A DNA stretch of 64,000 nt from Desulfovibrio gilichinskyi (GTDB taxonomy: Bacteria > Desulfobacterota > Desulfovibrionia > Desulfovibrionales > Desulfovibrionaceae), in assembly GCF_900177375.1 (NCBI RefSeq), contig NZ_FWZU01000002.1, positions 434,001-498,000 on the forward strand, in the 5' to 3' direction. The position numbers and the translations under genes were made by a program. A model generated the notes under the pieces. It worked only from the letters and a program-made list of their open reading frames with translations, made no database searches and was not told the origin of the DNA. The first letter of the stretch is position 1; each line of letters begins with the position of its first letter. Positions 14,402 to 18,997 of the stretch are shown here, in pieces.

Positions 14402-16468
14402 CTAAAGTTTAACACGATCCATCATTTCCTGAAGTGACTTTGCTTGCATATCTAAATCTCTCACAGCCATTTCAAGCTGTCTTGAACTTTCGAGATTTTG
14501 CTCTCCAGCCTGTTTGATACTGCCAAGAGCTACCGCCACTTGATCAAGTCCGGCTAACTGCTCCTGACTTGAAGCCGCAATCTGTGCAGAGGATTGAGCT
14601 GACTGATTGATAACTGCACTTAAACTAAGGATGGATTCTCCTGTCTGGGATGATAGGTTTGCGCCTACTTCAACAGCCTTTCCGCCTTCCTCGGTAATCA
14701 TAACGGCAGAGCTGGTAGCTTTTTGAATGTCTGCAAGTATGGATTGAATTTGAGCGACAGACTGTTTTGACTGGTCAGAAAGGTTCCTGATTTCGCGCGC
14801 GACAACCGTGAATCCTTTTCCTTCTTCCCCTGCCTTAGATGCCTCGATGGAAGCGTTTACAGCGAGAATGTTGGACTGGTCTGCAAGGTCATTAACTACA
14901 TAAATAATGTCACCTATGTGTTGAGACTGCTCGGCAAGCTTTACAATGCTTGTAGCAATTGTATCCATTTGAAGTTTAATGTTCATCATTCCTGATGCAG
15001 CGTCTTCAGAAGCTTTTTGTCCTTGCTGAGATGTTCTGACTGCTTTGCGGGCGACATCGGCTACTTGCCTTGATTTTTCATTTGAAAGGTGAGCTGTTTG
15101 TTTAACCTCTTCAACAGTAGCGTTTGTTTCAGCTACTGCGCTTGCTGTTTCGGCAGCACTTGCTGTCAGTTCTGCTGAAGCTGCTGAAATTTGGCTGAGC
15201 GATGAAGACAAAATGCTGACAGTATCATGAATTTTTCTATTATCGTCTTTGAGGTTCTCAACCATGCGGGCAAGAGCTTTTCCGATGGTGTCATGCTCTG
15301 ATCGCGGCGTTACTTCCAGGGTCAGATCAGAATCTGCAATTCTTTCCATGGCCTCAGTCATTATTTTCAGCGAAGCAGCCATTTTGTTAAAAGCTTTTGA
15401 CAGCAGACCGAGTTCATCAGTTCTGTCGGTATCATCAATTCCTTCCGGCATGTCCCCTTCAGCAATTTTATATGCGGCATTAACAACTTTCTTAAGCGGG
15501 ATAGTTATGTTTCGTCCTATTATTATAGCGGAAATGCCACCTAGTAAAATTGCACATAAGCCTGCAAGATAGACATTAGTCTTAGCACTGGTATTGCGAG
15601 CTTGCAGTTCAGGGCCAAGTTTGTCCTGATCCGCAATCACAGAGTCCTTGGCCTGCTTGATTGCTGCTTCCATTTTAGGTCCAAGTTTATCAAGCTCAGA
15701 ATCTATCAAATCGTTCCGCTTTTCTGTAAGAGTGGTAAACTGCAATAATATTTGGATATATGATTTGCTGGTATTAATTATCTCATCCAGTTTTTTGCGG
15801 TTACCTGCTTCTAAAATTTGTGACAGTTGGCTTGTAATGGTATCAAGCTCAGCCATTTCTTTAAGCGATTTTTTTATGTGGTCATTATCGCTGTCGCCTA
15901 GGAATTTAGCTGCGTAAAGTCGTCCAAGAACCAGATGTCTGATTCCCCTCGCACACCAGAAAAGGGCTTTAGAATTTTTTTCTGATTTGCCTAAGCTGTT
16001 AATTATCTGTCCGAAATAGTTTTCCATGAGATCGCCTTTCGGAATCAACTCGTTAGTTGCTAAAGTGGAACGGAGAGTTTGCGATCTTGCTACTTCTGTA
16101 AAACTTTCTTCATACACGTCAATCATCTGTTTAACGTCGAGTATTTTAGAAATTCTATCTTGAGTTGAAAAACTTTTTTCTGCGGAGTCAATCAGATGAA
16201 GTAATTTTTGTATGTTTGCAAAATGTTTTTCTTTATATTCATTCTTGTCAGTTATGATAAAATCTTTGACGCAGGTAGTGGCTTCAAGCAGGGTAACTTG
16301 AATTTCACTGATTAAATTTGATTCTCGCGCATAGTTCCGGTAAGTTGTGAAACCTTCAGATGAAGTGTTAAGAGCTTTTAGCGATTCAAAACTTACACCT
16401 CCGAACAAGATGGCTACAATAACAAAACTGGAGAATATTTTTTGGCCTACTGTTAACCGTTTAAGCAT
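14402..16468 (-). CDS. Methyl-accepting chemotaxis protein
   Basis: This is a 688-residue membrane receptor. Transmembrane helix 1 is at about 10-28, followed by a long helical periplasmic sensor (about 30-297) without cysteine or PAS signs, transmembrane helix 2 at about 299-318, a HAMP linker at about 319-371, and the coiled-coil signalling domain to the end. The hairpin tip reads 'DQSNILAVNASIEASKAGE', somewhat divergent from the usual QTNLLALNAAIEAARAGE but still suited to CheA/CheW binding. The ligand is unknown; the sensor is consistent with a helical-bundle fold. It lies 159 bp downstream of the lipoprotein and HPt-aminotransferase genes on the same strand and ends with its own terminator. 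Confidence 0.94.
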   Translation of the reverse strand: MLKRLTVGQKIFSSFVIVAILFGGVSFESLKALNTSSEGFTTYRNYARESNLISEIQVTLLEATTCVKDFIITDKNEYKEKHFANIQKLLHLIDSAEKSFSTQDRISKILDVKQMIDVYEESFTEVARSQTLRSTLATNELIPKGDLMENYFGQIINSLGKSEKNSKALFWCARGIRHLVLGRLYAAKFLGDSDNDHIKKSLKEMAELDTITSQLSQILEAGNRKKLDEIINTSKSYIQILLQFTTLTEKRNDLIDSELDKLGPKMEAAIKQAKDSVIADQDKLGPELQARNTSAKTNVYLAGLCAILLGGISAIIIGRNITIPLKKVVNAAYKIAEGDMPEGIDDTDRTDELGLLSKAFNKMAASLKIMTEAMERIADSDLTLEVTPRSEHDTIGKALARMVENLKDDNRKIHDTVSILSSSLSQISAASAELTASAAETASAVAETNATVEEVKQTAHLSNEKSRQVADVARKAVRTSQQGQKASEDAASGMMNIKLQMDTIATSIVKLAEQSQHIGDIIYVVNDLADQSNILAVNASIEASKAGEEGKGFTVVAREIRNLSDQSKQSVAQIQSILADIQKATSSAVMITEEGGKAVEVGANLSSQTGESILSLSAVINQSAQSSAQIAASSQEQLAGLDQVAVALGSIKQAGEQNLESSRQLEMAVRDLDMQAKSLQEMMDRVKL

Positions 16469-16627
16469 GGTACGACTGTTCCTTTGAGAGTGTTATTCTG
16501 TGCATGTAATAAGATTTGTATCTTTTTATCTGTTTATAATAAAAAGCTATTGCTGAAATCAGATTTTTATCTACGACAGCGTGTTGTCACTTGCAAGACG
16601 TTAAATTCAGTCTTTTTCTGTTACAGT

Positions 16628-16942
16628 TTATTCGTAATTACCGTCGCAGTATTCATTACATTTATCCCCGACAGCTTCGAAAATAGGAAGACAGTTTTGT
16701 AATCCCATCTGGTTGTCATATTGTTTCTGAACACTTTCACAGCCAGCTCTGCATTCTGCAGCGGAAGAGTAATCTTTCAAAAGCACGGCTGAGTATTGCT
16801 CGCAAAGATCTCCTTGCACATCACAGCTTGATTCCGTGGAAAAGGAACGGCAATAGGATTTTACTCCTTGCATGGTCGGAGCGTGAGTGGAGCATCCGGA
16901 CAATAAACCTAAAACACATAAGATCAGAATTATTCTGTTCAT
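16628..16942 (-). CDS. Small cysteine-rich lipoprotein
   Basis: This 104-residue protein has a lipobox 'LLSGC' (C17), so it should be lipid-anchored outside the inner membrane. The short mature part has eight further cysteines in a spaced pattern, probably four disulfides. No family is recognised. An 'aaggag' site immediately follows the stop of the upstream HPt-aminotransferase gene (12 bp between genes), so the two are translated from one mRNA. Its place between that gene and a chemoreceptor suggests, but does not show, a sensory role. Confidence 0.75.
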   Translation of the reverse strand: MNRIILILCVLGLLSGCSTHAPTMQGVKSYCRSFSTESSCDVQGDLCEQYSAVLLKDYSSAAECRAGCESVQKQYDNQMGLQNCLPIFEAVGDKCNEYCDGNYE

Positions 16943-16954
16943 CTGAACTCTCCT

Positions 16955-18538
16955 TTATTCAGCTAAAATATTGCGCATTGCTGCAAGAAACAGACGATTG
17001 CGGGAGTTGTTGCCGATTGAAACTGTGAGCAGGTCATTAAGTCCGAATTCGCTTAACAGCTTAACTTTGAATCCGTGATCCAGCATTTTGTCATGTAATG
17101 TTTTTGCCGGAATCGGCCCGCTGAACATTACAAAGTTGCTTTGACTCGGGTATACAGAGCATCCAAGCTCCTGAAGTCCTTTTTGTACGCGTTCTCTGCC
17201 TTTTATGATCAGAGCTATGGTTGAGTAATAAAATTCACTATGGTTGAGAGCGGCTATTCCTGCTCCGAGGTTTAAGGGACTGATCGGTTGTGGAAGTCTT
17301 GCGTCTTCGAGATGTTGAGCTCTTTCTGCACTCATCAGTGCGTACCCAAGTCTGACCCCTTGCATGCCGAACGACCATGAAAAGCTGCGTAGAATAACTA
17401 AATTGGGCATTTTATTTAAAAACGGCAGCATGGAGTAATCGTCTTCAGGCCATGCAAATTCTACGGATCTTTCATCGATTATCAGCAATGTTCGTTTAGG
17501 AAGAAGGGTTGCCATAGTTGCAAGCTCTTCCGCAGGCATTCCATATCCTGAAGGAATATCGGGGTTTGTTATGATAACTGCCGCAGTGTTTTTGTTTGAA
17601 GTATTAACAATCTGGTCAAGCGGCGGTGAAAAATTGCGTGACCGCGGCAGACGAAAAAGTTCAACCCCGCAAAGAGCTGCAACTCTGTTATATTCAGGAA
17701 GTCCGAATTCATAACTGAGCACATGGTCAATTCCCGGCGTTACTGTCAGGCGAAGAGCCAGATCGAGAATGTCGGCAGCTCCGTTTGCAATAATTACATT
17801 GTCTTCGGATATGTCATGCCGCTGTGCCAGACCGAATTTAAGGCTGTCATCCATATTATTTTCAAAGCCGCAACAATTGTTTGCCATATTTACAATTGTA
17901 TTTGAAACAGCTTTTGAAACTCCAAGCGGATTAGCATTAGTTGAAAGGTCTATCTCTTTTTTAATATTGAATTTCTTTTTGAAATCATGGGCTGAAATAT
18001 AAGAGGGTCTATTATGACTGGGCGGTGCAGCTTGTGTCGTTTCTGGCTTATTTACTTTAGTTTCTTTAGGCTCTGTATCAATCACAGGTTTTTCTTTTAC
18101 GGGAGCTGTATGTGGTTTTTGCGGAGCAGTTGTCTGGTTAGATGCGATTGCCTCTTTAACAGATTCCTCCAGAGGAATTGTTATAGACCGAATGTCATAG
18201 TCAGAGCTAAGTGTTGTGTTGCTTACAAGCTCAGTTAATTTGTCGTATATATCTATAATAATGTTCAAAAGGTCAGTTGTAAACGGAATTTCATTTTTAA
18301 AAATACGCTCAAGAACAGAGCCTATATTGCTGGCAATGAGACTTATATTTTTAAGGTCAAGTAACGCGGCACTTTCTTTTAAAGAAAGTGTAATTGCGTA
18401 GATTCTTGCAACAGAGGATCCTGCTGGAGAATGTATTTTTTCGAGTTTTATAAGTTCTGTTTCAATTTGTTCAAGTTTTTCGAGTGATTGTTCGACAAAA
18501 AGGTGTAAAGTAGGATCATTTTCAATCTCTTCAGTCAT
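16955..18538 (-). CDS. HPt-like domain fused to an aminotransferase-fold protein lacking the PLP lysine
   Basis: The ATG at 18538 with 'ggaggt' upstream gives 527 aa. Residues about 10-85 resemble a CheA-P1/HPt helical domain ('FVEQSLEKLEQIETELIKLE' and 'SLKESAALLDLKNI'), but the position of the phosphorylated His (HxxKG) is Leu51. A Pro/Thr/Lys-rich linker follows (about 125-180). Residues about 185-525 are a HisC/CobD-type fold-I aminotransferase: 'STNANPLG', 'NGAADILDLALR', 'LLIIDE' (D355) and 'GVRLGYA' (R396). The Schiff-base lysine of 'SFSK' is Trp388, the Asn of NNPTG is Ile328, and the C-terminal substrate Arg is Thr. Catalysis is therefore unlikely. The gene is coupled to a lipoprotein gene and followed by a chemoreceptor. 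A role as a ligand-binding or scaffold protein is inference. Confidence 0.8.
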   Translation of the reverse strand: MTEEIENDPTLHLFVEQSLEKLEQIETELIKLEKIHSPAGSSVARIYAITLSLKESAALLDLKNISLIASNIGSVLERIFKNEIPFTTDLLNIIIDIYDKLTELVSNTTLSSDYDIRSITIPLEESVKEAIASNQTTAPQKPHTAPVKEKPVIDTEPKETKVNKPETTQAAPPSHNRPSYISAHDFKKKFNIKKEIDLSTNANPLGVSKAVSNTIVNMANNCCGFENNMDDSLKFGLAQRHDISEDNVIIANGAADILDLALRLTVTPGIDHVLSYEFGLPEYNRVAALCGVELFRLPRSRNFSPPLDQIVNTSNKNTAAVIITNPDIPSGYGMPAEELATMATLLPKRTLLIIDERSVEFAWPEDDYSMLPFLNKMPNLVILRSFSWSFGMQGVRLGYALMSAERAQHLEDARLPQPISPLNLGAGIAALNHSEFYYSTIALIIKGRERVQKGLQELGCSVYPSQSNFVMFSGPIPAKTLHDKMLDHGFKVKLLSEFGLNDLLTVSIGNNSRNRLFLAAMRNILAE

Positions 18539-18997
18539 AGTAACCTCCACTTTGTGCAGTATATATTTAAAAGCTTGCGTTAATCAGCAGCTGTTTAGTC
18601 CCGTAATTAGAAAAAAATTATCAAAGGATATATGCATCAAGCTTAATATATTGGTACTTACACTATAAATAAATTATATCTTTTTTATAACTTGAATTTA
18701 GAAAAAGTAAACCCGATTCAGCTGTATTAATCTTAGAGCATGTCTGCTTAATATTCGCAATTAATCAATTCACAGTTTTAAAATTACAAATTCATAGATT
18801 GATAGTCTATATGTTATTTATTAAAGTTTATCTCAAGAGAAGGGCAATGCACAATATATTTTACTGTTTCAGGTTGCGCTTTTCGCAAGGGTGCTTCATA
18901 TTAATTTATCATATACATACGGTGTTGTAGTAGTGCTTATTAAACACGTGTCGAATATGGTATCCTCTAAATTAATTTAATTCCATAAGGAGTTGAA
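18539..18997. other. Intergenic region between divergent genes
   Basis: This 459-bp AT-rich gap should hold promoters for the minus-strand HPt-aminotransferase operon and the plus-strand rubrerythrin-like gene. I see no clear repeat or hairpin. The 'ataaggag' ribosome site of the latter lies at its right end. Confidence 0.4.

Follow-up and report, generated by a model that had tools for sequence, protein, structure and literature searches.

Single domains that have lost their catalytic residues are already known, and HisC, a member of the fold-type I PLP enzymes, forms dimers. HPt domains without the phospho-acceptor His occur in the chemosensory proteins ChpA and CheA3, and the function of those in ChpA is described as yet to be established (PMC10782961). 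The plant pseudo-HPt AHP6, in which the His is replaced, is said possibly to compete with working HPts (PMC7402358). The gene described here, found in the window (the whole stretch of 64,000 nucleotides that was analysed), shares with HisC (TIGR01141) the fold and a sequence alignable over the whole domain (199.6 bits), with CheA P1 (HPt, PF01627) a helical bundle (family profile E 9e-10), and with ChpA, CheA3 and AHP6 an HPt domain without His.

Gene, domain layout and neighbourhood

The first-pass annotation had described a fusion of an HPt-like domain with an aminotransferase in an intact frame of 527 aa. The frame, the profiles and the orthologues bear this out, the frame being located on the minus strand, which that annotation had left unstated, and comprising 527 aa plus stop with no internal stop codon. 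Leu51, Ile328, Asp355, Trp388 (TGG), Arg396 and Thr505 were all found in the sequence and the alignments at the positions named earlier. The features of the gene and of its downstream neighbours are:

16955..18538, minus strand: HPt-aminotransferase fusion gene, 527 aa (frame and genus orthologues)
18164..18514, minus strand: pseudo-HPt domain of CheA P1 type, residues 9-125, His lost (profile and predicted model)
18386..18388, minus strand: codon CTT of Leu51, at the position of the HPt phospho-acceptor His (alignments)
17996..18163, minus strand: variable linker, residues 126-181, with 0 of 56 columns invariant and pLDDT below 50 over residues 136-176
16964..17995, minus strand: pseudo-aminotransferase domain of HisC fold, residues 182-525 (profiles, model and Foldseek)
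17375..17377, minus strand: codon TGG of Trp388, at the position of the PLP Schiff-base Lys (alignments)
16628..16942, minus strand: Cys-rich small protein of 104 aa, encoded 12 nt downstream of the fusion gene, with a start that by eye resembles a lipobox
16571..16596, minus strand: element TTGCAA-N12-TGTCGTAG in the gap that separates the MCP gene from the small gene
14402..16468, minus strand: MCP with HAMP and MCP signal domains, 688 aa (Pfam and genus synteny)

A first AlphaFold model, based on 3 rows only, had a mean pLDDT of 37. The second model, computed with 18 alignment rows, reached a mean pLDDT of 81.5 and a pTM of 0.68 and consists of five predicted helices (residues 9-34, 40-59, 63-80, 88-106 and 117-135) followed by the HisC fold. 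The dimerisation, kinase and CheW domains of CheA are absent, and Aminotran_1_2 is the sole Pfam family above its cut-off in the window protein (residues 194-508, E 2e-35).

The order of fusion gene, small lipoprotein-like gene and MCP gene was found in 17/17 genomes of the genus, with a gap of -17 to +16 nt followed by one of 71-163 nt, and the trio is intact in G014, where the flgE-hslUV side is replaced, and in G001, which has no Liv-type transporter next to it. Since the wider neighbourhood is largely syntenic across the genus too, the adjacency to the MCP gene is modest evidence. The link to chemotaxis proposed by the first-pass annotation is supported, more weakly than its pseudoenzyme reading, by the CheA-P1-type HPt and by an MCP gene two genes downstream in 17/17 genomes within a neighbourhood that is largely conserved anyway. 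Conservation is lower in the sensor half of the MCP, at 34-54% in the six further genus genomes searched, and of 112 genomes searched outside the genus, 23 have weaker relatives of it (at most 31%).

In 16/17 genus genomes, G001 being the exception, the stretch that separates the small gene from the MCP gene contains the pattern TTGMAA-N12-TGNCGTA; its stricter form was present in 12/17 and occurs once in the window's own genome. The element TTGCAA-N12-TGTCGTAG is a possible promoter or operator. Upstream of the fusion gene (about 18700-18800; L008-L017), blocks such as TAATATTAA and CAAAAGCGCAAC recur in many of the genomes and may belong to the divergent rubrerythrin-like gene. FliA and sigma-54 motifs upstream of the fusion gene amounted to one isolated match (L003), and a promoter scan found 23 candidates compared with a mean of 15.2 (sd 4.7) in shuffled sequences.

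Residues lost and kept in the two halves

With the window sequence alone, the N-terminal 130 residues scored 13.8 bits against Pfam Hpt (cut-off 24.6, E 0.072), and at E up to 0.1 the Pfam model recognised 15 of the 18 members of the domain alignment, the best of them at 2e-5. The 18-row family profile found CheA P1 (2ld6, E 9e-10; 1tqg, E 2e-9), ranking a chain named BRIC1 (6ff6, E 5e-13) ahead of it, and profile and predicted helices together indicate a helical bundle related to CheA P1. With HPt columns read as in the alignment to solved CheA P1 chains, the phospho-acceptor position is occupied by L, V, I, T or F in 17/17 orthologues and by His in none. Of the suggested conservation of Leu51, the lack of His therefore holds throughout, while Leu itself is not fixed. 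Gly at H+4 is replaced by Glu (Glu55) and Lys54 is kept, both in 17/17, and the position of CheA Glu67 carries Gly in 16 and Ala in one of the 17 sequences. That of CheA His64 is S, D or G. We assume here the Thermotoga maritima CheA numbering of Glu67 and His64 and the roles of the H+4 Gly and of P1 Glu67.

Among the matches listed, the closest His-bearing HPts either stand alone or, as read from sequence, carry a STAS-like tail, and a CheA-like second frame was recognised by eye beside the His-bearing HPt gene in 7 of 15 selected loci, two of the seven being cut by a contig end. A viral scan with the HPt half gave no confirmed match. In the window's own genome, CheA (L088 5520-8510, 996 aa) has three HPt-like stretches, the third with Val at the His place (by eye). 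In G000, G002 and G001, a stand-alone HPt with His (L087 4193-4600, L090, L092) is followed directly by a gene resembling DAHP synthase/chorismate mutase and by aroB; neither of these two genes had a match in the 8-kb loci L102 and L103. In other genera of the family (L095-L101, L104-L109), HPt proteins have a long C-terminal part that appears STAS-like by eye.

For the C-terminal half, TIGR01141 hisC matched residues 187-524 with 199.6 bits, under its curated cut-off of 276.55. The best Foldseek match of the predicted model was the HisC chain 3ffh (E 2e-25, TMt 0.84) with HisC chains ranking top, which assigns the model to the fold-type I aminotransferases, and the nearest solved chains by sequence are HisC proteins. 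Trp388 aligns gap-free with the Lys of the 'FSK' motif in HMMER alignments to the solved HisC proteins 4wbt, 3ffh and 3get, and a misalignment hiding a PLP Lys was ruled out by the agreement of these three sequences. The Schiff-base position is Trp in 17/17 genus orthologues and Arg in G038, the one more distant fusion described below. The conservation of Trp388, which the first-pass annotation had named as a check, is thus complete within the genus and, given orthologues down to 58% identity, more than chance. Asp355 is invariant and Ser387 is kept in 16/17; Arg396, which had been described as persisting, does so in the window protein and in 15/17 orthologues, the other two having Ser and Gly.

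Variation within the pseudo clade was found at positions 225, 254, 255, 280, 328, 358, 493 and 505, which we take to be PLP or substrate contacts in HisC, with I/M/V/E at 328, S/A/C/Y at 358 and T/K at 505. The Tyr-Pro segment (225/226), which in HisC presumably reaches the active site of the partner subunit, is degraded to F/L/S/M and D/E/K. Of 162 columns fixed in 13 true HisC proteins of the same genus (L019-L031), 53 are still fixed with the same residue in the pseudo clade. Among 12 fixed PLP/substrate positions, which we adopted from E. coli HisC, one (Asp355) is still fixed compared with 52 of the 150 other columns (one-sided Fisher p 0.052, weak), and by majority residue 4/12 are kept compared with 80/150 (p 0.15, weak). 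This suggests a pocket that is at least without preferential retention, with weak statistical support. Conversely, 66 columns that vary among the 13 genus HisC are invariant in the pseudo clade of 17 sequences (e.g. 363, 366, 438, 450); since Trp363 is found in HisC of other genera too, part of these columns is not new.

Conservation, distribution and origin

Full-length orthologues were found in 17/17 genomes of this genus of sulfate-reducing bacteria, the window's own included, the other 16 being 58-89% identical. All 17 frames are intact, and the single TAA seen in three orthologues is the gene's own stop. Nei-Gojobori estimates of dN/dS, which are rough because several dS values exceed 1, were 0.033-0.113 for the aminotransferase half and 0.019-0.142 for the HPt half (six pairs), the former similar to true HisC (0.057-0.099, five pairs). 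The linker ranged from 0.17 to 1.53 in the four pairs where the ratio was defined, the value of 1.53 coming from one pair. With an enzyme fold, lost catalytic residues and a frame under purifying selection, the fusion is a pseudoenzyme as far as inactivity can be read from sequence. The proposal of a conserved pseudoenzyme under purifying selection is thus supported by the orthologues, Trp388 and dN/dS, and recent decay was ruled out on the same grounds. A HisC-like paralogue (33-36% identity, one match partial) exists elsewhere in each of the 17 genomes, and the Lys is retained in 13/13 paralogues fetched.

Beyond the genus, at least one further full-length fusion, a protein of 515 aa in G038, was found among the matches listed for 314 other genomes (G017-G330), each of which was covered by at least one search, the class-level search listing genomes from within the same order alone. 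We rejected a broader distribution of the fusion on this count, one genome of 314 among the matches listed. A scan of named genomes yielded two loci, both of this genus and from metagenome-assembled Desulfovibrio sp. (JAQYWK010000005.1, DDLU01000190.1). Elsewhere, 37 aminotransferase rows, which include two genes counted double and 16 loci selected chiefly for their long frames, all keep the Lys and have no HPt.

The His position of the G038 protein is Asp in two alignments and Leu in a third, which has a one-residue gap there, and His in none. Its N-terminus matched Pfam Hpt under the cut-off (E 9e-4) and scored 31.6 bits with a profile built from the 17 HPts of the genus, with which many His-bearing HPts score higher (up to 75 bits). 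The Lys (by Arg), Asn328, Tyr358 and others are replaced with letters different from those of the window protein, and Tyr225, Arg396, Arg493 and Arg505 are kept. Neither an MCP gene nor the small gene is present at the locus, the MCP sensor half had no match in the whole G038 genome, and the downstream neighbour encodes a hybrid GAF-PAS histidine kinase with a receiver domain. The aminotransferase half shares 46% identity with the HisC of G038 itself, compared with 33% with the window protein, an argument for a separate duplication. In trees of both halves, G038 grouped next to the genus clade (supports 87/80 and 91/83, with a long-branch warning from the program). Genes fetched more than once (L001, L046-L058, L070-L086, L093) and identical stretches were dropped before counts and trees were made, as were aminotransferase matches below 60 bits and HPt matches covering fewer than 70 model positions. 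On these sequences, a single origin of the genus and G038 fusions is likely.

Possible function and comparison with known systems

We tentatively regard the fusion, with slightly less than even confidence, as a non-catalytic signalling adaptor of two dead domains that acts by binding and not by chemistry. The HisC-fold half would provide a stable scaffold, presumably dimeric as in HisC, and the CheA-P1-type half, which should carry no phosphate, would offer a docking site or a decoy to a partner that is probably chemosensory. Candidates for this partner include CheA, a receiver and the complex to which the nearby MCP belongs; by binding it, the fusion might tune the pathway of the nearby receptor. 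Counting for an adaptor are the 17/17 orthologues with low dN/dS, the invariant Trp388, Glu55 and Lys54, the missing His, the 66 clade-fixed columns, the CheA P1 profile match, the CheA-like frames in 7/15 loci, the fixed gene trio, the hybrid kinase neighbour in G038 and the HisC fold seen with AlphaFold and Foldseek. On the other side, the MCP link could equal mere synteny, G038 has neither the two neighbouring genes nor a match to the MCP sensor, and the invariant H+4 Glu could prevent any docking of a receiver, so that no more than an oligomerisation bundle would be left. The fast-evolving linker lends no support to communication between the halves. It is also conceivable, if rather doubtful, that the fusion represents a new class of chemosensory modulator, in which a dead HisC-fold dimer presents a pair of non-phosphorylatable P1 domains and thereby competes with CheA P1, or caps it, within the array of a single receptor. 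Biosynthetic enzyme and phosphorelay domain would then have been co-recruited to inhibit by structure alone.

A ligand sensor, in which the emptied aminotransferase site binds a small metabolite other than PLP and the HPt half reports to a signalling partner, would be in line with the retention of Asp355, Ser387 and Arg396 and with an amino-acid-type ABC transporter, at least its binding-protein gene, near the fusion in 16/17 genomes. We consider it unlikely, given that Trp388 should fill the pocket, that Arg396 is lost in two species, that the transporter genes lie away from the fusion gene in G001 and that only one of 12 pocket positions is still fixed, a weak difference. The first-pass annotation had proposed binding of an amino acid or phospho-amino-acid. 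This proposal fared poorly, the contact positions varying within the clade and a fixed bulky Trp occupying the Lys site, although with p values of 0.052 and 0.15 the statistics are weak and compatible with a re-use of the pocket, to which we assign a low probability. A pocket that is not kept argues against binding of PLP or phospho-amino-acids and for a protein-binding scaffold.

The HisC fold and the paralogues with Lys would also allow mixed dimers, in which the fusion as a regulatory pseudo-subunit of true HisC couples histidine synthesis to signalling; with the Tyr-Pro segment degraded and the fusion and HisC genes unlinked, this is improbable. Still less probable is an enzyme that works with a relocated Lys or a PLP-free reaction, since catalytic residues and most of those for binding have gone together, and the binding residues differ between orthologues, even though fold and Asp355 are intact and G038 combines Arg at the Lys position with the substrate Args. 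A decaying duplicate retained by chance might explain the variable cofactor positions and the single high linker ratio, but is scarcely credible in view of 17/17 intact frames, dN/dS of 0.02-0.14 in both domains and invariant Trp388 and Glu55.

The adaptor that we favour differs from HisC by its score below the cut-off, the missing PLP Lys, the replaced or variable Asn, Tyr and substrate Arg, and the attached HPt. Unlike CheA P1 and other HPts, it has no His, Glu instead of the H+4 Gly, Gly or Ala instead of Glu67, and no kinase domains. The His-less HPts of ChpA and CheA3 are part of a CheA in which another HPt bears the His, whereas that of the fusion is joined to a dead aminotransferase. 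AHP6, which has Asn at the His site and no aminotransferase, belongs to the plant cytokinin pathway; it is the precedent for a His-less HPt that may compete in a phosphorelay. No paper recognised in our literature search describes an HPt-aminotransferase architecture with both domains dead. The known cases are single dead domains, whereas two unrelated inactivated catalytic domains are joined here and conserved genus-wide near a receptor gene. If the fusion modulates chemotaxis by binding alone, it would be a clear natural example of enzyme folds put to new use as signalling scaffolds and would offer a testable role for His-less HPt domains.
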